Made by a program: the position numbers and the translations under genes. The notes under the pieces were generated by a model. That model was not told the DNA's origin. It worked only from the letters and a program-made list of their open reading frames with translations, and searched no databases. A stretch of DNA of 58,632 nt, taken from NCBI GenBank assembly GCA_019752125.1, contig JAIEMM010000005.1, positions 1 to 58,632 of the forward strand. The letters are read 5' to 3'. This document shows, piece after piece, positions 1-46,657 of this stretch (positions are counted from its first letter, which is position 1; the number at the start of each line of letters is the position of its first letter). The DNA is from Patescibacteria group bacterium. Lineage in GTDB: Bacteria; Patescibacteriota; Minisyncoccia; Phycocordibacterales; SBAW01.

Positions 1-907
1 GATTCACTTGCTCTTCGATGGCAAGTTTGAGCACTGTGAGCCTGATTGGTTCTGGCAACCAAACATACGAACTTGATGTGGTAGCAGATAGTATGTGTCT
101 CGCTCGCCCTAGCATCTTCCTTGCGGCCTCACGATGCGGGAACACTTTTACTTCCAGTATGTTCGCCGCCCCCACATAAGACTGATCTGTGAAGTCAGTT
201 AGCGTTGCTTGTCTGACTACCGCAAGAGCTGAAGCGGCGATCTGTGGAAACATCGCTTCGAGTTTAGCGAAACTTGGGTTGTGTATTTTCTTTCCCAGCT
301 TCACCTGCCTGATACGTAACGGCACTGTCGCAGCAACAAGCGAGAGAAATATATCGATCCCGTATCCATACACCGCCTCGACCGGTACTGTGCCCACCAA
401 CACATCTAAAAATAGACGGTTGAAAGCGAAATCGCCTGCAATTGGCTGACGAACTCGCTGTCCGGTAAATCCGTAGATAACCGGGTACGCGAAATGATTG
501 GTTGAACTCCCTTCAAATCGACTCCTCTCGTAAAGCGGGGTTACATAATCGGCTTCGCCACTCATTAACGGGTCGAGCAGTCGCCGCATCCAATCTTCAG
601 TAACTGACGTAATATCAGTATCGATCGTAACGCAGAAATCAGCATCTTCCTTACGGGCCACTTCAGTAAAAGACAGAAGATTCCTACCCTTTCCCGGCTC
701 TCCCTGAGGCACAATACTTGTCTTGGGATAGTAGGTGATTTCTTTATTGAACACCTCTCTAGTACCATCAACACTATTACTATCAACGTTTACAATGCGT
801 GCCGATGTAAGACCGGGCACAGATCGTAAACCCTTATCGACGATACGTGTAACCGTACCAATCGTCCCAGCCTCATTCAGGCTAGGTAAGCATACGAGCA
901 CTTTCAT
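1..907 (-). CDS. GT81-like (family 2 fold) glycosyltransferase, 3' end outside window
   Basis: Partial: about 302 residues are visible and no stop is reached before the left edge. The start (MKVLVCLPSLNEAGTIG) has a strong AGGAGGG Shine-Dalgarno. The N-terminal SLNEAGTIG nucleotide-binding strand, the VDSNSVDGT turn and an acidic TIDTDI (a DxD metal/nucleotide-sugar site, near residue 95) define a GT-A glycosyltransferase. The later PIAGDFAFNR and VYGYGIDIF segments recall the GEYAGRR and GYGVE motifs of glucosyl-3-phosphoglycerate and mannosylglycerate synthases, so a retaining GT81-like enzyme acting on a small acceptor is the best guess. No membrane segment is seen. It lies 17 nt downstream of the HD hydrolase and is probably co-transcribed with it. 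The acceptor and sugar cannot be read from sequence. Confidence 0.75.
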   Translation of the reverse strand, partial: MKVLVCLPSLNEAGTIGTVTRIVDKGLRSVPGLTSARIVNVDSNSVDGTREVFNKEITYYPKTSIVPQGEPGKGRNLLSFTEVARKEDADFCVTIDTDITSVTEDWMRRLLDPLMSGEADYVTPLYERSRFEGSSTNHFAYPVIYGFTGQRVRQPIAGDFAFNRLFLDVLVGTVPVEAVYGYGIDIFLSLVAATVPLRIRQVKLGKKIHNPSFAKLEAMFPQIAASALAVVRQATLTDFTDQSYVGAANILEVKVFPHREAARKMLGRARHILSATTSSSYVWLPEPIRLTVLKLAIEEQVN

Positions 908-924
908 TTAGCCCTCCTGTGCTG

Positions 925-1473
925 TTATTTTTCCGTCTCAAAGCGTGCCACCTCGGCCTCATATCGAACCCGCAAACTCTTCCATGCAGGTTCGTCGCTG
1001 TATTCTTTTGTAAGGTCCAGGAAGTATTTCTCCTTGTTTATCAAGAATTCTTGCTTTTTTTTGTCCGGCACAAGCTTGACATAAATGCTATTTATTTGCA
1101 AATCTGCAGCCTTAATGACCACCGCTTCCCGACCCGCTGCCAATGTTCGAGTGTACATATCTTGATATTTTTTCATCTCGTCTGAAATACTTTCGTCATA
1201 TGAAACTGCCTTAACGAGTTGCAGGACTCGAGAACCAAACGCAGCTTCAAGTTGCTCTTCAGTCACTCCCGTGTCTTCAAGCACGTCATGGAGAATAGCC
1301 GGGATTACTATATCTTTTGGATAACCAGCCTCCAAAAGAGAGAAGGCAACCCTGAGTGTATGTAGAATTACCGGTTTAGGGTTGTTGCCAGTCTTAGCGT
1401 ATTCGCTAACAAAAAAGCTAATGGCTTTCTCAATCTCAAACCCATCTTCTGGCGAGACGAATATATTAAACAT
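925..1473 (-). CDS. RelA/SpoT-type HD-domain phosphohydrolase (small, stand-alone)
   Basis: A 182-residue protein made almost entirely of an HD hydrolase domain. VILHTLRVA supplies the first His, AILHDVLEDTGVTEEQL the HD pair and following acidic residues, and VVIKAADLQINS the distal Asp. This matches the hydrolase half of RelA/SpoT and the MESH1-like small alarmone hydrolases. Family members remove pyrophosphate from ppGpp or phosphate from related nucleotides using Mn2+; no synthetase or TGS domain is present. The gene sits between a terminator on its upstream side and the glycosyltransferase downstream, so it probably heads its own two-gene transcript. A complete RelA/SpoT homologue is at 57 kb, so this second HD protein may act on another phosphorylated substrate tied to the neighbouring enzymes (inference). 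Confidence 0.8.
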   Translation of the reverse strand: MFNIFVSPEDGFEIEKAISFFVSEYAKTGNNPKPVILHTLRVAFSLLEAGYPKDIVIPAILHDVLEDTGVTEEQLEAAFGSRVLQLVKAVSYDESISDEMKKYQDMYTRTLAAGREAVVIKAADLQINSIYVKLVPDKKKQEFLINKEKYFLDLTKEYSDEPAWKSLRVRYEAEVARFETEK

Positions 1474-1490: not shown

Positions 1491-1516
1491 GAAAAAGGCG
1501 GTCAGATAGACCGCCT
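1491..1516 (-). terminator. Rho-independent terminator after the HPr-kinase-like gene
   Basis: A perfect 8-bp stem (AGGCGGTC / GACCGCCT) with a 5-nt loop is followed on the minus strand by a T-rich run. It separates the cofE/MAT/kinase transcript from the HD/glycosyltransferase transcript. Confidence 0.85.
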
Positions 1517-1527
1517 AAATTACTCAG

Positions 1528-2466
1528 TTAATTTATGTGACCTTTTATGTAGTCAGTCACATCCTTTAGAGGTCCTGATACATACATCATGGAAGGAACC
1601 CGGATAAGGTGCTCGATTAGGATTTTCCTTTTGCCGAACAACTCTTCGGTATCCAACGATGGTACGTAGCCCAAAAACTCCAGTTCCGCACCAAACAACG
1701 CTATTGAGGTGGCACGGATGTAACGCGAGAAGTTTTCGTTGAGATACAATCTTGTGACCACGCCGTCTGCTGGCCTCACAAACAACCCCTGCAGTGTATC
1801 GTCGACATGAACCAAAAACGAACGCGCTATGTCAACAGGAGTTGTCTGAACTTCTATTCCTAACTCGTCAGGCATCCGAAAAACCTTATGAAGCCATGGA
1901 TCCGTTCGAATTGGAGGAAACAGACTTAGCGTGTCTGGGAGATTACGTCGCATGGATTCGTAGCGAAGATGGAAATACTTTGTCCCATTCCTCGCAACTA
2001 CTTTTTGTCGTACCGAATCAAAACCGAGCTGGACTAAATCATTCCCTATTAGCTTTCCTCCATGCCACCGACACAAACCTAACGCCGTGGAAGTTTTTCC
2101 AGCGCCCTCTTTTCCAAAAAGCATTACTGCTCCGGAACTGAAGCCTACCGCGGCTGCATGTGCGGTGACATAACCCGTCTGTTGATTTTGTAATTCAACA
2201 AACGGCAGGGCCGCATACACTAACAAGTCTCCGCTCTGAACCAGGGATACTGGTCCTTCCACTTCAACCTGCCGGTCTCCGTATCTAACCTTGGGCGTAG
2301 CTGAAACTCGGTATCTAACCGTGTACTGATAGCCCGTATTTCTCTGCTCTACAGTTAGCCCAGCAAAATTCGACTCACGAGCCGTTTTCTGCAAAGCTCC
2401 TACGAGGTCTGTAGCTGATTCGACCCCGATTAACTGCCCGTCAATGCTTAGCGTGTAGGTAAACAT
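1528..2466 (-). CDS. HPr kinase/PEPCK-superfamily P-loop kinase-like protein
   Basis: 312 residues. The N-terminal ~100 residues match nothing I recognise. At about residue 118 comes a Walker A, LFGKEGAGKTSTALGL, followed by GGKLIGNDLVQLG. This corresponds to the P-loop plus the LVaDD-type strand of the HprK C-terminal kinase / PEP-carboxykinase superfamily, with N-D in place of the usual D-D. The rest (RYESMRRNLPD, TTPVDIARSFLVHVDD) is beta-rich as in HprK-related proteins. No HPr or PTS gene is visible, so classical HPr phosphorylation is unlikely. HprK-related proteins are known in bacterial peptide-modification and exopolysaccharide clusters. The start has an AGGAGG Shine-Dalgarno 4 nt upstream, and the gene follows MAT by 8 nt. 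A small-molecule or peptide kinase role is inference. Confidence 0.7.
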   Translation of the reverse strand: MFTYTLSIDGQLIGVESATDLVGALQKTARESNFAGLTVEQRNTGYQYTVRYRVSATPKVRYGDRQVEVEGPVSLVQSGDLLVYAALPFVELQNQQTGYVTAHAAAVGFSSGAVMLFGKEGAGKTSTALGLCRWHGGKLIGNDLVQLGFDSVRQKVVARNGTKYFHLRYESMRRNLPDTLSLFPPIRTDPWLHKVFRMPDELGIEVQTTPVDIARSFLVHVDDTLQGLFVRPADGVVTRLYLNENFSRYIRATSIALFGAELEFLGYVPSLDTEELFGKRKILIEHLIRVPSMMYVSGPLKDVTDYIKGHIN

Positions 2467-2474
2467 TGAACCTC

Positions 2475-3665
2475 CTATAGTTCAAGCATCCATGGTCGGA
2501 AGTTAAGAATCTCCTGCACATAGTCCGCAGAGAGCATATCCTTCTCGACCAAACGCTCAACCTCCACCGGATCAACATCGTTGCTTGTTGCCACATGCAA
2601 CATTGCCGGCGGCAGCAGCGTGTCACCACAGCGAGTTAAGGCTGACACAGTGCAACGAACATTCAGTTCGATAGCGATGCTCTTGGAAAGCTTCGATACT
2701 AGATACCCCATCACCCTGCCTGTGTGATAAACAGGATTTTTACCGGCCCAAGACTCAAGCGTATGGACACGGTGAGACGAAATGACACCGTTGAGCGAGT
2801 TCCCTCGACCCACAATGCCCTCTTCGCCACATTCAATACAGCTCCCAAGTCCTAGCATGTACTGGTGCTGATATGGGTTCACCCGGACGACTATTTTTTG
2901 ATTATTGCCTGCGAACCGACCTACAAGAGCTGTGAGTTGCTCTTCATGGTATTTGATCAATTCAAGATATCGCTCTCGAGACGGTGTATGGATACTAATA
3001 GTAGGTACACACAACACCGCCTCCAGCTCGTTTCCTCGACGCAATACCATAACCTTAATGTCTTGACCGATTTCCGGAAACCTTGGGATGGCAAATCCAC
3101 CTACAGGCTCCCAAAAATATCGCTCCAGCCGATACGCGAGCATTTCAGCCAACGTCGGCGGCCAATGACCAACACAGAAGGAAGTGTCATTGGCTCTGGC
3201 ATGATCCGCATCAGGGATGTCTGCTCGGTCGCGAGGGGTGAACCAGTGTGCGACCTTCGTATGCTGAGTTGCATTGGGGTCGATAATAAGATCTTCGGGA
3301 GTAATGCGTGGCAAAACCTTGCTAAGATAGTTCCACACTGCATTATGCTGGATCTCTTCGATACCAATCGCCTCACCTCCGAACGTATTCGTCATTCGAC
3401 CATTCACCCGCACCACAACAGGCGCGAGGCGATTGCACTGACTATAGTCGTTTTTGTAGTAACCAGCGCCGATATAGAGTTTGTCCACGTTGTGGTGCGG
3501 GATAAGCCCATACCTCTGTAGACACTCTCTTGAAAAAGCGATGGACACTTCGTTCGCCAGAGCATCTGCAAGAGAGTCAGGATGTCCGACCCCTTTACGC
3601 TCTACTACTTCGACCGGTAGCACTGCGGGGTCAAAGTAGTCCTTCGTAATATTCAGATAGTTCAC
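2475..3665 (-). CDS. Archaeal-type S-adenosylmethionine synthetase
   Basis: 396 residues, the usual length of the archaeal MAT family (PF01941-like) rather than bacterial MetK. Near the N-terminus is VERKGVGHPDSLADALA, the ATP/methionine-binding signature, followed by HHNVDKLYIGAG. Mid-protein ANDTSFCVGHWPPTLAE aligns with the archaeal DTSIxVxxAP..TxxE block. GLGSCIECGEEGIVGRGN matches the conserved archaeal C-terminal region. The predicted reaction is ATP + Met to AdoMet. It starts at GTG with AAGGAGG 7 nt upstream. It lies 12 nt after cofE and 8 nt before the kinase-like gene, so the three form one operon. Archaeal-type MATs in bacteria are uncommon and often sit in specialised pathways, which suggests dedicated AdoMet supply or a repurposed adenosyl-transfer reaction. 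Confidence 0.88.
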   Translation of the reverse strand: MNYLNITKDYFDPAVLPVEVVERKGVGHPDSLADALANEVSIAFSRECLQRYGLIPHHNVDKLYIGAGYYKNDYSQCNRLAPVVVRVNGRMTNTFGGEAIGIEEIQHNAVWNYLSKVLPRITPEDLIIDPNATQHTKVAHWFTPRDRADIPDADHARANDTSFCVGHWPPTLAEMLAYRLERYFWEPVGGFAIPRFPEIGQDIKVMVLRRGNELEAVLCVPTISIHTPSRERYLELIKYHEEQLTALVGRFAGNNQKIVVRVNPYQHQYMLGLGSCIECGEEGIVGRGNSLNGVISSHRVHTLESWAGKNPVYHTGRVMGYLVSKLSKSIAIELNVRCTVSALTRCGDTLLPPAMLHVATSNDVDPVEVERLVEKDMLSADYVQEILNFRPWMLEL

Positions 3666-3677
3666 TTTGATTCCTCC

Positions 3678-4406
3678 TTACAAAAGGTCGGTGATTCGAG
3701 CTTTTTCCGAGACAGTGAATGTTAGGCCTCGGACCAACACAGCAGGCACCCCCTCTCCAGCTTGACCCATGAGAATTGAAGCAGCTGCAGCAATCTCATC
3801 AACCAAAGCAATACGAGGATGCGACACGTTGCCAAACAGATCAACTTTTTCAGCAGTTTCTATGGCACCGATACCAGCGATACCAATAGCCATTCCAACA
3901 GAACCGTCTCGATAATCTCTTCCGCACGAGTCGTTGATGATTACCGCTATGGTCTTGCCTGTGTGCTCGAGAACTCGAGCACGAACAACACGTGCGCTGT
4001 TGTCGGGATCTCGAGGCAGAAGCACAACCCGACCCGCCTCATGAGGCGCAATATTTGATCGGTCCACTCCCGAACTAGAGCCCACGAAACCTAGTTTGTG
4101 TCGCGTGATAATCATGCGACCTTTTACAGCTAGGACTTCTTTTGCTTCATCGAGATATACCTGCACCAACCGAGGATCTCGACCGGTCTGAGCGGCAAGC
4201 TGAAGAGCTTCCGCAGACGCAGTAATCGTTTGAAGGTCCACAACGGCCCCTTCGGCTTTAGAGACAATCTTTTGAGCCAAAACGAGTACGTCGCTGTCTT
4301 CGAAACTACCCGACGACTCAACGGCCCTTATTAAAAGAGCCGGCAAATCATCGCCTGGGTTAATAAGCGGCAAAGTGCCTATCGCACGCACGGTGTATGA
4401 TCCCAT
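3678..4406 (-). CDS. cofE: Coenzyme F420-0:L-glutamate ligase-like protein (CofE)
   Basis: 242 residues, matching archaeal single-domain CofE. Family blocks in order: NPGDDLPALL, SDVLVLAQKIVSKAEG (residues ~38-54), DPRLVQVYLDE, GVDRSNI, VLLPRDPDNSARVVR, VIINDSCGRDYRDGSVGMAI (~155-175) and DEIAAAASILMGQAGEGVP. CofE adds gamma-linked glutamates to F420-0 using GTP and a divalent metal. The GRxxRxG and SNI/D residues of the nucleotide/metal site are kept. The start has AAGGAG 6 nt upstream, and a consensus -35 box (TTGACA) lies at 4479-4484 on this strand with only a poor -10 at 17 bp. It is the first gene of the cofE-MAT-kinase operon. No cofC, cofD, cofG or cofH is in the window, so the real acceptor may be F420 or a different carboxylate. 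Confidence 0.88.
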   Translation of the reverse strand: MGSYTVRAIGTLPLINPGDDLPALLIRAVESSGSFEDSDVLVLAQKIVSKAEGAVVDLQTITASAEALQLAAQTGRDPRLVQVYLDEAKEVLAVKGRMIITRHKLGFVGSSSGVDRSNIAPHEAGRVVLLPRDPDNSARVVRARVLEHTGKTIAVIINDSCGRDYRDGSVGMAIGIAGIGAIETAEKVDLFGNVSHPRIALVDEIAAAASILMGQAGEGVPAVLVRGLTFTVSEKARITDLL

Positions 4407-4540
4407 GATTTTCTCCTTGTGAAGAACAGGTTGCAGAACTTAGCATCTGTCGGCTACTTTTCATTAATTTTTGAGTTTTGTCAACGTCATTTTATTTAAC
4501 ATTGCCAAGTGAGAAAACCGCTCCACTTTCCACAAAAGCA

Positions 4541-4562
4541 GAAAACCGCCAGCAGTGGCGGT
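4541..4562 (-). terminator. Terminator downstream of tRNA-Ala
   Basis: ACCGCCA/TGGCGGT perfect 7-bp stem with a 4-nt loop, followed by TTTT on the minus strand. It ends the tRNA-Ala transcript and separates it from the cofE operon promoter region. Confidence 0.75.
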
Positions 4563-4576
4563 GTTTCTGTCTTTTG

Positions 4577-4649
4577 TGGACCCTACCGGGATCGAACCGG
4601 TCGCCTCCTCATTGCAAATGAGGCGCTCTACCAAATGAGCTAAGGGCCC
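4577..4649 (-). tRNA. tRNA-Ala (UGC)
   Basis: Cloverleaf on the minus strand: acceptor GGGCCCT pairs with AGGGTCC (one G-U), the D-arm contains GCTCATTTGGTAGAGC, the anticodon loop TTTGCAA gives anticodon TGC, and the T-arm carries GGTTCGATCCC. Length is 73 nt and the 3' CCA is not encoded. It follows the pcd gene by about 50 nt. Confidence 0.95.
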
Positions 4650-4700
4650 GAACGTCAATAATATATACCAGAAACCCAAAAAAACATAGTCCAGGAGGGC

Positions 4701-21237: not shown

Positions 21238-21714
21238 ATGAAAAAATTCCTTATCGGCGGCATCATAGTGGTTCTCTTGGGAGGGTATGCACTGTGGGCA
21301 GCATCACGTACATCACAGCCAACAACTGTTACGGGTAACCAGACCGGGTCAGTCTCAGCAACAACTACTCCTGGTACAGGTGTAGGCATCGGCGACACGT
21401 CAAAACCTGGCGATGTTACTCCTGCCCAGTACAAAGATGGCGCATATACTGGCAAGGTTGGCTCTGCGGCACCGTATGGCAACGTACAGGTACAAGTAAC
21501 CGTCGCAAGCGGCAAAATTACAAAGATCGATTTATTGCAAAAACCTCAAGGCCCAGGCGAAACAAATGAGATTGCAGCCCGCTCATTCCCTATCCTTGTG
21601 CAAGAAGCTATCACAACACAAAACTCGCACGTAAACATCGTTTCAGGTGCGACTCAAAATGTAGAAGGCTTCAACACCTCACTCTCTTCAGCGCTCCAGC
21701 AAGCACAGATCTAG
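21238..21714 (+). CDS. FMN-binding domain protein, covalent flavin carrier
   Basis: 158 residues. An N-terminal signal/anchor (FLIGGIIVVLLGGYALWAA) and a Thr/Ser/Gly-rich linker lead to an FMN-binding domain (residues ~63-158): YKDGAYTGKVGSAAPYGNVQ, QVTVASGKITKIDLLQ and, near the end, IVSGATQNVEGF. The SGAT motif is the known acceptor sequence for covalent FMN on Thr added by ApbE. It should carry an extracytoplasmic flavin and pass electrons. TATAAT ends 7 nt before the ATG. It is followed by apbE (4 nt gap) and the membrane flavoreductase, forming one operon. Confidence 0.92.
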   Translation: MKKFLIGGIIVVLLGGYALWAASRTSQPTTVTGNQTGSVSATTTPGTGVGIGDTSKPGDVTPAQYKDGAYTGKVGSAAPYGNVQVQVTVASGKITKIDLLQKPQGPGETNEIAARSFPILVQEAITTQNSHVNIVSGATQNVEGFNTSLSSALQQAQI

Positions 21715-21718
21715 CCCA

Positions 21719-22573
21719 ATGAAAGAAACTCGATTGATCATGGGAATGCCCATCACAGTCGAGGTAGCGGAGCAAAAAAGCCCCGAAGCTTTTTGCGCAG
21801 ATGCGATGGAAGAGGTGTTTTCGTATTTTGTTTCAGTAGATGAGCGATTTAGTACTTATAAGGAAACTAGTGAGATTTCAAAAATTAATCAAAGCCTCCA
21901 CGAACAAGCTTCTTTCACAAAAGTCCTCGGGGGTCCTCGGTTTCCTTCGGAAACCTTGCGCCAGACTTTTGCTCAAGAACTTGTTCGCTTTGGTCTTAGC
22001 GAAGATATGCTAGAAGTTCTGGCTTTGGCAGAAAAAACTAAGAAAGAGACAGCTGGCTACTTTGATATTCACCTGCCTGCCCAGGCAGGAAAACCCGATG
22101 GCGGCATTGACCCATCAGGCATTGTAAAAGGCTGGGCAATTAAAAATGCTGCAGAACTTTTGAAAGAAAGAGGTGTAGAAAATTTTTACATAGAAGCGGG
22201 CGGTGATATCCAAACCAGCGGCATGAATGCAGAAGGAAATGAATGGAACGTGGGCATCCGCAACCCCTTCAACAAAAACGAAATAGTCAAAGTCATATAC
22301 CCACGCGGGCGCGGGGTTGCTACATCTGGCAGCTACGAACGCGGGAATCATATCTACAACCCTCTCGCCCCAGAAGAATCTTTACGCGAAGTTGTGAGCA
22401 TCACTGTCATAGGCCCAGACGTACTTGAAGCAGACAGGTTCGCAACCGCTGCATTTGCTATGGGGCAGAAAGGCGTTGAGTTCATTGAAACTTTGGGTGG
22501 TTTCGAGGCATACTCAATAGACAAGAACGGTATAGCGACTATGACTAGTAAGTTCCTGGAATTAACACAATGA
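21719..22573 (+). CDS. apbE: FAD:protein FMN transferase
   Basis: 284 residues. It transfers FMN from FAD to the Thr of the partner SGAT motif. Motifs: MGMPITVEVAE, DERFSTYKETSEISKIN (residues ~35-55), GGIDPSGIVKGWAIKNAAEL, IEAGGDIQTSG and VATSGSYERG, all as in ApbE. The lipoprotein signal often seen in ApbE is absent. Two repeats are inserted in frame: a hairpin element at 21901-21987 (KVLGGPRFPSETLRQTF) and a palindrome at 22072-22089 (HLPAQAGKPDGG). The stop overlaps the next start by 4 nt (ATGA). Confidence 0.94.
   Translation: MKETRLIMGMPITVEVAEQKSPEAFCADAMEEVFSYFVSVDERFSTYKETSEISKINQSLHEQASFTKVLGGPRFPSETLRQTFAQELVRFGLSEDMLEVLALAEKTKKETAGYFDIHLPAQAGKPDGGIDPSGIVKGWAIKNAAELLKERGVENFYIEAGGDIQTSGMNAEGNEWNVGIRNPFNKNEIVKVIYPRGRGVATSGSYERGNHIYNPLAPEESLREVVSITVIGPDVLEADRFATAAFAMGQKGVEFIETLGGFEAYSIDKNGIATMTSKFLELTQ
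21901..21987. repeat. In-frame hairpin element, type C (apbE copy)
   Basis: Outer arms CGAACAAG/CTTGTTCG, middle TTCTT/AAGAA, inner AAAAGTC/GACTTTT, and a core with TCCTCGGGGG, the hairpin GGTTTCC-TTC-GGAAACC and GCGCCAGAC. The core corresponds to the tgt copy; arms are unrelated in sequence but paired in both. Confidence 0.8.
22072..22089. repeat. Palindrome CCTGCCTGCCCAGGCAGG in apbE
   Basis: 18-bp imperfect palindrome encoding LPAQAG in ApbE. A related copy (GCCTGCCTGCCGACAGGCAAGC-like) lies upstream of serS at 53286. Confidence 0.75.
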
Positions 22574-24057
22574 ACATAAACATTCCCTTTGTGGATGCAT
22601 TTTTGAACCGCATTACGATGTACCGCCTTGTGCTGTGGCATCTTTTGTTTTTGATTGTCGTTGCTTTTGTATTGAGCTTCTTCAGTCTTTTCTCATTTAC
22701 TCCATGGGCACTGCTCTTCTCATTCTTTCTTATCATCGCTGCGTGCTGGGTAACCAATGAAGCGATCGCCTGGGTCTTTAAGGTTACACCAAACACTGAG
22801 TCGGTATATATTACGGCGTTTATTTTGACACTTATTTTAAACCCTGTTGCGTTTAGTAACTTCACCGGTGCACTGATGCTCGTTATTGCTAGCGTCGTAG
22901 CTATAGCTTCAAAATATGTACTCACGATTGATAAGAAGCATGTGTTCAACCCTGCAGCTATCGGAGTTGCAGTAACTGGCGTGGTATTTGGAACCTACGC
23001 AAGCTGGTGGGTAGGCGGCACGCTTTCCCTTCTTCCTTTTGTGTTTATCGGAGGCTTGCTTGTAGTACGAAAGGTGCAGCGCTTTGACCAGCTCTGGGTT
23101 TTCTCTGCAGTCGCGCTTGCTGGCGTGGCTATACATTTCTTGCCCCACAACCCCTTCAACTCTATCTGGCAAACAATTCTCCATTCTTCTCTTCTGTTCT
23201 TCGTAAGTATTATGCTGACGGAGCCCCTCACCTCTCCGATAACACGCATGCACCGCTTTATCTATGCTGGCATAGTCGCACTATTCTTTATACCGGAGGT
23301 TCATATAATGTCGTTCTATTTCTCTCCCGAAACTGCACTTCTCGTTGGCAACGTCTACGCCTATGTAGTTAGTCCAAAGGTTCGTCGAGTACTTACACTT
23401 AAAGAACGCAGCCAGATTGCTGAAGGCGTATATAATTTTGCGTTTACCGCAAACAAACCATTTTCATTTAAGCCGGGGCAGTACTTGGAATGGACATTGG
23501 GCCATACAAAACCGGACCAGCGCGGTAATAGACGCTACTTCACTATCGCCTCTTCTCCTACAGAAAAAGAAATCCATCTTGGTATAAAAACCTACGAACC
23601 TTCGAGTACGTTTAAGAAGGCTCTCCTTGCGCTTGAACCAGGCGACACTCTTTCAGTTGGACAGCTATCAGGCGAATTTATCTTGCCAAGAGATCCGGGC
23701 AGAAAAATTGCATTTATTGCCGGCGGTATCGGCATTACCCCATTCCGTTCGATGATTCAATATTTGGTAGATACTAACCAGAAACGCGACACTGTGTTGC
23801 TATATTCAACCAAAAAAGAAAATGAGTTGGCGTATAAAGAAGTCTTTACTGAAGCAGAAGAAAAAATTGGCCTCAAAACATACTACGACAATAGAATAAC
23901 GACAGAGGAACTCATTCGCGAAGTCCCTGACTACAAAGACCGCGTCTTCTATATCTCAGGACCCCGATCAATGGTCGTAGCATTCGAAAAGACACTCAAA
24001 GAACTCGGTGTTCATCGCCGCAATATCAAAATCGACTTCTTCCCTGGCTTTGCCTAA
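22570..24057 (+). CDS. NqrB/RnfD-like membrane domain fused to ferredoxin-NAD(P)H reductase domain
   Basis: 495 residues. The N-terminal ~260 residues form about nine membrane helices with the RnfD/NqrB/RnfD-like block KYVLTIDKKHVFNPAAIGVA near residue 115. The C-terminal ~230 residues are a flavodoxin-reductase fold: FKPGQYLEWTLG, RRYFTIASSPTEKEIHLGIK (FAD site RxYTxS-type), IAFIAGGIGITPFRSMI (NAD(P) loop) and FYISGPRSMV. It would take electrons from NAD(P)H and move them across the membrane to the FMN carrier encoded two genes upstream. No heme or iron-sulfur motifs are seen. It overlaps apbE by 4 nt. Confidence 0.9.
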   Translation: MNINIPFVDAFLNRITMYRLVLWHLLFLIVVAFVLSFFSLFSFTPWALLFSFFLIIAACWVTNEAIAWVFKVTPNTESVYITAFILTLILNPVAFSNFTGALMLVIASVVAIASKYVLTIDKKHVFNPAAIGVAVTGVVFGTYASWWVGGTLSLLPFVFIGGLLVVRKVQRFDQLWVFSAVALAGVAIHFLPHNPFNSIWQTILHSSLLFFVSIMLTEPLTSPITRMHRFIYAGIVALFFIPEVHIMSFYFSPETALLVGNVYAYVVSPKVRRVLTLKERSQIAEGVYNFAFTANKPFSFKPGQYLEWTLGHTKPDQRGNRRYFTIASSPTEKEIHLGIKTYEPSSTFKKALLALEPGDTLSVGQLSGEFILPRDPGRKIAFIAGGIGITPFRSMIQYLVDTNQKRDTVLLYSTKKENELAYKEVFTEAEEKIGLKTYYDNRITTEELIREVPDYKDRVFYISGPRSMVVAFEKTLKELGVHRRNIKIDFFPGFA

Positions 24058-46183: not shown

Positions 46184-46657
46184 ATGGATACTGATTTAGA
46201 TAACGCTCGAAAAGACGCCCTCGCATTTCTTACACGTAACAAAATCGGGGTGCTTGGAACAAGCTCATCCGAAGGCAACGTTCATGCAAGTATGGTGTAT
46301 TACACCGCAGACGCTGATTTTAATATCTACATCATTACGCTTATGAATAGCCGCAAGTTCAAAGCGATACAAGAACATCCTCAAGTCGCGTTTACTGTAT
46401 CGGTACCCGATGTACCTCAAACATTACAAATCGAAGGTGTGGCGATGGACATATCGCTTGACGAAGGCGCTGCAAAAAAGAAAGACGAACTCTTTGCAGT
46501 TCTTGATTCAAATAACTGGTTTTACGCACCAATTACAAAACTCGATCCCACAGAGTCAGTGGTTGTCTGGATCAAACCTACATGGATACGTTGGGCAGAC
46601 TATGCTTTTGAAGAAAGTGGGAATAAGCATATCTTTAAAGAAATTCCTTTACCATAA
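46184..46657 (+). CDS. Pyridoxamine 5'-phosphate oxidase-fold flavoprotein
   Basis: 157 residues. IGVLGTSSSEGNVHASMVYY, FNIYIITLMNSRKFKAIQEH and VAFTVSVPD form the FMN-binding split barrel; ends with VVVWIKPTWIRWADY. Probably a flavin- or F420-binding reductase of the PPOX superfamily, not a vitamin B6 enzyme. TATACT lies 9 nt before the ATG. Confidence 0.85.
   Translation: MDTDLDNARKDALAFLTRNKIGVLGTSSSEGNVHASMVYYTADADFNIYIITLMNSRKFKAIQEHPQVAFTVSVPDVPQTLQIEGVAMDISLDEGAAKKKDELFAVLDSNNWFYAPITKLDPTESVVVWIKPTWIRWADYAFEESGNKHIFKEIPLP

Follow-up and report, generated by a model that had tools for sequence, protein, structure and literature searches.

A CofE-family glutamate ligase in a gene cassette of a Patescibacteria genome without other F420 genes

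Introduction

CofE normally completes cofactor F420. A homologue of this ligase is encoded near one end of a 58,632-nucleotide stretch of DNA (referred to here as the window), which is contig C6 of a 702,215-base, 14-contig Patescibacteria genome with an estimated completeness of 98.9%. This raises the question of which acceptor the enzyme glutamylates in such an organism. A preliminary description, made from the window alone, had proposed either a different acceptor or an acquired F420-0.

Results

Rather than standing alone, the CofE gene opens a five-gene cassette, which the preliminary description had missed, and the order is CofE, archaeal-type methionine adenosyltransferase (MAT), HprK-like kinase, HD phosphohydrolase and glycosyltransferase (GT), with continuation on another contig. 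The features of the cassette are as follows.

3678..4406, minus strand: CofE-family glutamate ligase, first cassette gene (PF01996, 4.4e-64; TIGR01916; fold; tree)
2475..3665, minus strand: archaeal-type MAT, 12 bp downstream of CofE (PF01941, 6.7e-66)
1528..2466, minus strand: HprK-like P-loop kinase of 312 amino acids, 8 bp downstream of MAT (Walker A motif GKEGAGKT)
1496..1516, minus strand: terminator-like hairpin and T run between the HprK-like and HD genes (consensus match only)
925..1473, minus strand: HD_4 domain phosphohydrolase (PF13328, 2.7e-10; same position in loci L032 and L194)
1..904, minus strand: GpgS/MGS-like GT, N-terminal 301 amino acids, running off contig C6 (PF00535, 1.4e-8)

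The CofE open reading frame encodes 242 amino acids, with an ATG start and an AAGGAG ribosome-binding site upstream. Its identification as a genuine CofE homologue was confirmed by the PF01996 match, by a score of 230.3 bits against the TIGR01916 equivalog model (cut-off of 180.65) and by an AlphaFold model (pLDDT of 82.5) that matched Archaeoglobus fulgidus CofE (AF2256; structures 2PHN and 7ULD) with a TM-score of about 0.8 (0.82-0.84 for 2PHN) and an identity of about 40% in the fold alignment. The preliminary description stated that all of the CofE blocks are present. This holds for SKAEG, NDS, D..SN and DE, which we take to be the GTP- and metal-binding motifs, but the block preceding the metal aspartate is non-canonical (SSSGVDRSN versus the usual ANAGIDxSN). 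The NA of the NA[GA][IV]D.SN motif is retained in all nine F420-operon CofEs and in 0/14 of the cassette and Streptomyces CofEs described below, where it is replaced by SS, TS, GS or TA; the copies at loci L193 and L194 are likewise changed. The CofE reaction begins with phosphorylation of the F420-0 phospholactyl carboxylate by GTP; the resulting acyl phosphate is then attacked by L-glutamate (PMC10861534). As the GTP and metal motifs are kept in the window protein, this ligase chemistry is likely to be conserved, and in combination with a score above the F420 equivalog cut-off, activity on F420-0 is possible.

No cofC, cofD, cofG or cofH was identified among the window ORFs, in agreement with the preliminary description. 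Profile searches of the whole 98.9%-complete genome counted one CofE and returned no CofD or CofC, with positive controls. Similarly, tblastn analysis using proteins from annotated F420 operons gave no match to CofG, CofH, CofC, CofD, NpdG, LLM or F420-type PPOX proteins at E < 1e-3 anywhere in the genome. The possibility that the genome encodes a complete F420 pathway outside the window, for which the preliminary description had proposed a whole-genome search, was therefore rejected. The same description considered the PPOX-fold protein at 46.2 kb (46184-46657) a conceivable F420 user. This protein reached 48.6 bits with TIGR03618, for which the cut-off is 79.05 bits, was below all of the F420-family cut-offs and is a generic PNPOx-like (PF01243) protein; it thus provides no evidence of an F420 user and was rejected as one.

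Elsewhere in the window, the ORFs at 21238-24057 read as an FMN-binding protein, an ApbE-like protein and an RnfD-like membrane oxidoreductase in series. From their sequences, this looks like a flavin-based electron-transfer unit.

The MAT scored 223 bits against PF01941 (cut-off of 27), contains the GHPD, DIK, VGRGN and GKNP motifs, and matches the archaeal SAM synthetase structures 7p82 and 4hpv over nearly its full length. It scored below the NCBIfam equivalog cut-offs and, while it keeps the motifs of the archaeal-type enzymes, belongs to a divergent branch that includes the Streptomyces cluster MATs. It is the only SAM synthetase recognised in the window genome (G000), where no bacterial MetK was found, and may be the general SAM synthetase of this organism. 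The kinase had no match to any Pfam family, including HPr kinase (PF07475), and its homologues gave weak scores of 18-26 bits to HPr kinase models (PF07475/TIGR00679; cut-off of 33.3). PEP carboxykinase and HPr kinase have a common fold, and these were the nearest folds to the kinase model (pLDDT of 75.8). The protein thus resembles the HPr kinase, HprK-related and PEP carboxykinase families in its Walker A motif and modelled fold, but constitutes a family of its own, in which no family model reaches its cut-off. The hairpin at 1496..1516 separates the kinase gene from the HD and GT genes, which may therefore form a second transcription unit.

The closest sequences to the GT are glucosyl-3-phosphoglycerate synthase (GpgS, GT81) and mannosylglycerate synthase (MGS, GT78) (7pdo, 6.7e-15; 2y4k, 3.6e-10), which act on (phospho)glycerate. 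The QP.aG, GYGID and H motifs of these enzymes are kept, yet the scores are below the curated cut-offs: the N-terminal 301 amino acids gave 70 bits (1.8e-19) against glucosyl-3-phosphoglycerate synthase NF010496 (cut-off of 262), and the complete homologue at L034 was likewise below, with 54.6 bits.

To place the cassette among its relatives, a phylum sample of 380 genomes and a class sample of 384 genomes, which added three loci, were used. PF01996 was present in 105 of the 380 phylum genomes, nearly all on a branch other than that of the window CofE, and the PF01941 MAT in 11. The HprK-type kinase was present in six, with an E-value gap from 1e-130 to 1e-13. These six represent six different families, and the kinase-bearing members include a WWE3 bacterium and Andersenbacterium. 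All six carry the PF01941 MAT at the same locus (hypergeometric p of 1e-10, relatedness ignored), and all five genomes with a CofE of the window clade are among them (p of 9e-11, relatedness ignored). A scan of the genome contigs with a kinase profile, limited by the scarcity of conserved stretches in this profile, returned two loci, both already known.

The kinase-MAT core was identified at nine Patescibacteria loci, eight of which belong to taxonomic orders other than that of the window; linkage is maintained although the genes are shuffled between genomes. The order CofE-MAT-HprK-HD-GT recurs at L194 (G403). Locus L193 (G677) encodes CofE, a His_Phos-GT fusion, an isomerase-Gfo/Idh fusion, a shikimate-DH-family protein, MAT and the kinase; G677 is the one Patescibacteria genome with the full set of the Streptomyces type described below, and this is the only CPR locus with the isomerase-Gfo/Idh protein. 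Locus L195 encodes GT, MAT, a HAD protein, a LarA-like racemase and the kinase, and the locus in G095 adds a SAM decarboxylase and a C-methyltransferase. CofE was absent near MAT-HprK in G029 (88% complete) and in the stretch of G580 that was seen, and in G077 it lies at a locus separate from the core. The GT varies among the cassettes, with a GT4 protein in G077 and G029, and the products may therefore differ. A phosphatase is present at seven of the nine loci, and the hydrolase slot is filled by three unrelated families (HD, HAD and His_Phos), which suggests a dephosphorylation step. The five further cassette genomes of the phylum sample contained no true CofD; the three matches (G029, G077 and G082) were discarded as YvcK-like, two scoring above the YvcK cut-off and one having YvcK as its best match.

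Several further observations were made at these and related loci. The L194 cassette (1561-4672) is the nearest relative of that in the window; the N-terminal half of its MAT is deleted and its GT is cut short, so that it appears to be decaying or to contain an assembly error. The gene between MAT and kinase at L195 (6967-8199) belongs to the malate/lactate racemase (LarA-like) family, a hint of a 2-hydroxy acid. At L035 (8332-14342), a SPASM radical-SAM protein and two metallopeptidase-like proteins lie between two near-identical cassette-type CofEs, and transposase-like genes are nearby; the MAT-kinase core of this genome is on a different contig. The f43 family genomes (L051-L053) encode a further type of CofE homologue, a CofE-domain protein of ~400 amino acids with a diverged motif set.

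A tblastn search of plasmids with the window MAT and CofE identified three Streptomyces plasmids (NBC_00708, NBC_01601 and NBC_01304), each with a single operon for an isomerase, Gfo/Idh, MAT, HprK-like kinase, GT and CofE. The reading frames of MAT, kinase, GT and CofE overlap, and a shikimate-DH-family gene follows CofE in two of the three. One Streptomyces hypothetical protein corresponds to the kinase (E of 7e-18 to the Andersenbacterial copy) and a second to the GT (E of 8e-22). The kinase was not found in viral contigs or plasmids by single-protein search, the Streptomyces copies being recovered through MAT and CofE. The Streptomyces clusters share the MAT, kinase, GT and CofE with the window cassette, but add the isomerase and Gfo/Idh genes (and shikimate DH in 2/3) and are without the HD gene. 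On a Halorussus plasmid, a segment of about 10 kb holds MAT, GT, isomerase, Gfo/Idh and aroE, and the GT gene overlaps one for a methyltransferase. Broad searches of open-access papers yielded no account of the cassette gene set.

Archaeal-type MATs also occur in other clusters. A second MAT branch includes clusters without CofE in Streptomyces NBC_01334 (L170), NBC_00015 (L178) and a Megaera plasmid (L172). The Streptomyces clusters of this branch comprise GT, MAT, isomerase, Gfo/Idh, a P-loop kinase, a carbamoyltransferase and a NUDIX protein, and the endosymbiont plasmid is similar. Patescibacteria MATs on the second branch are present at L104, L106 and L107 (G216, G090 and G096). An orphan MAT cluster on a Parageobacillus plasmid (L180, 5587-9191) encodes a PqqD-like protein, a HAD protein, myo-inositol-1-phosphate synthase and a divergent MAT consecutively.

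The CofE tree comprised 53 rows, including six CPR cassette, six Streptomyces plasmid and 32 other Patescibacteria CofEs. The cassette and Streptomyces CofEs formed one clade with good if not full support (94/86), nested among F420-operon CofEs, with a weak CPR-only subset (86/61); the nearest non-cassette relatives were F420-operon CofEs of Sinorhizobium, Paraburkholderia and Aromatoleum. The nesting indicates that the cassette CofE probably began as an F420 ligase, with recruitment at a later stage, as read from the tree. The 32 other Patescibacteria CofEs were excluded from the clade (100/98). In the MAT tree, a 100/99 branch grouped the MATs of six CPR cassettes, of the Streptomyces clusters and of Halorussus, to the exclusion of those of G077 and WWE3.

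These results bear on two alternative functions. A folate gamma-glutamate ligase has been proposed for other CofE homologues in F420-less genomes; TIGR04132 (putative folate gamma-glutamate ligase) describes such a role, and the phylum has folate-type homologues (L054, 280 bits to TIGR04132). The window CofE belongs to the same superfamily, but reached 52.9 bits where the cut-off is 350 and falls outside the folate-type branch (100/98). This identity was rejected by score and tree, and we consider it highly improbable. Alternatively, the ligase could serve in salvage, extending the tail of F420-0 or short-tailed F420 from neighbours for a user such as the PPOX protein. The TIGR01916 score, the intact GTP and metal motifs and the F420-operon relatives speak for such a role; opposed to these are the substituted NA of the NAGID block, the lack of any NpdG, LLM or F420-specific PPOX homologue by tblastn at E < 1e-3 in the genome, the sub-threshold PPOX protein, and the linkage of CofE to the MAT, kinase and GT genes in distant genomes, likewise without CofD. 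The acquired F420-0 option of the preliminary description found no supporting evidence in this analysis; F420-0 is an unlikely acceptor, and salvage has perhaps one chance in ten.

The left border of the cassette is marked by the following features.

4576..4649, minus strand: tRNA-Ala (TGC), marking the left edge of the cassette insert (shared, together with the terminator, by G777, which lacks the cassette)
4545..4562, minus strand: terminator hairpin of the tRNA-Ala (homology with G777 ends shortly beyond)

The cassette starts right after this tRNA gene and its terminator. The same-genus genome G777 (locus L225), of a sister species, has the order uvrB-uvrA-uvrC-ddl-PCD-tRNA-Ala-terminator, as in the window; the ATP synthase operon follows within about 1.5 kb, and the cassette is absent. 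The window genome encodes the GT C-terminus at the start of contig C14 (L083, 2-235, plus strand), where the only match in the genome to a C-terminal GT-family profile was found (E of 5.8e-10), and the ATP synthase operon follows the end of the GT. Contigs C6 and C14 thus appear to be adjacent on the ATP synthase operon side, with the GT split across both. A cassette-type CofE was present in 1/41 family genomes and 1/34 genus genomes, in each case the window's own. The cassette, present in one species and opposite a syntenic empty site in a relative (G777), is probably a horizontally acquired island beside tRNA-Ala. The G095 cassette likewise begins 0.2 kb after a tRNA-Ser. No integrase was seen among the cassette genes and no convincing att or tRNA-derived repeats in L031, the right border lying on contig C14. 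A phage origin of CofE was rejected, as no match was found in the phage collection.

An island of this kind could also be a loose accessory set, in which the MAT substitutes for a missing MetK and the other genes are independent hitch-hikers. This would fit the absence of bacterial MetK from G000, the position beside a tRNA gene, the differing gene orders and the damaged MAT and GT of G403. It is at odds with G308, which has both a bacterial MetK and the cassette MAT; with several Patescibacteria that have neither a recognised MetK nor the cassette MAT; and with the Streptomyces operons, in which the same four genes occur together and their reading frames overlap. We consider such a set unlikely, at around one chance in seven.

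Discussion

We consider, with a probability of roughly 70%, that the window CofE is a GTP-dependent L-glutamate ligase recruited from F420 metabolism into a cassette that was acquired horizontally and directs small-molecule biosynthesis, where it acts on a non-F420 acceptor. Of the options in the preliminary description, glutamylation of a different acceptor is favoured by the lack of F420 genes, the linkage to four non-F420 genes and the clade-specific motif change. The protein differs from CofE/FbiB in several respects: its genome is without an F420 pathway, its NAGID block is changed, it is linked to MAT, kinase and GT, and it belongs to a clade of its own.

In the proposed pathway, CofE would activate a carboxylate as an acyl phosphate with GTP and join it to L-glutamate, as expected from its enzyme family. 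The acceptor would most likely be a hydroxy acid glycosylated by the GT, an analogue of the phospholactyl carboxylate of F420-0, as suggested by family homology below the curated cut-offs. The kinase may add a phosphate and the phosphohydrolase may remove one, the removal resembling that in glucosylglycerate synthesis, and the MAT would supply SAM or another adenosylated intermediate. More tentatively, the product could belong to an undescribed class of gamma-glutamylated, glycosylated hydroxy-acid metabolites or cofactors, made by a cassette passed among ultra-small Patescibacteria, Streptomyces plasmids and perhaps haloarchaea, in which CofE, once the enzyme that finishes F420, evolved into a ligase for natural products; we regard this fuller reading as possible but doubtful.

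CofE homologues are automatically annotated as F420 biosynthesis proteins in databases. The genomic context here says otherwise, and such annotation can therefore mislead in reduced genomes. That gene-poor Patescibacteria should share the core of a biosynthetic cluster with Streptomyces was unexpected, and Streptomyces offers a route to isolating the cassette product.
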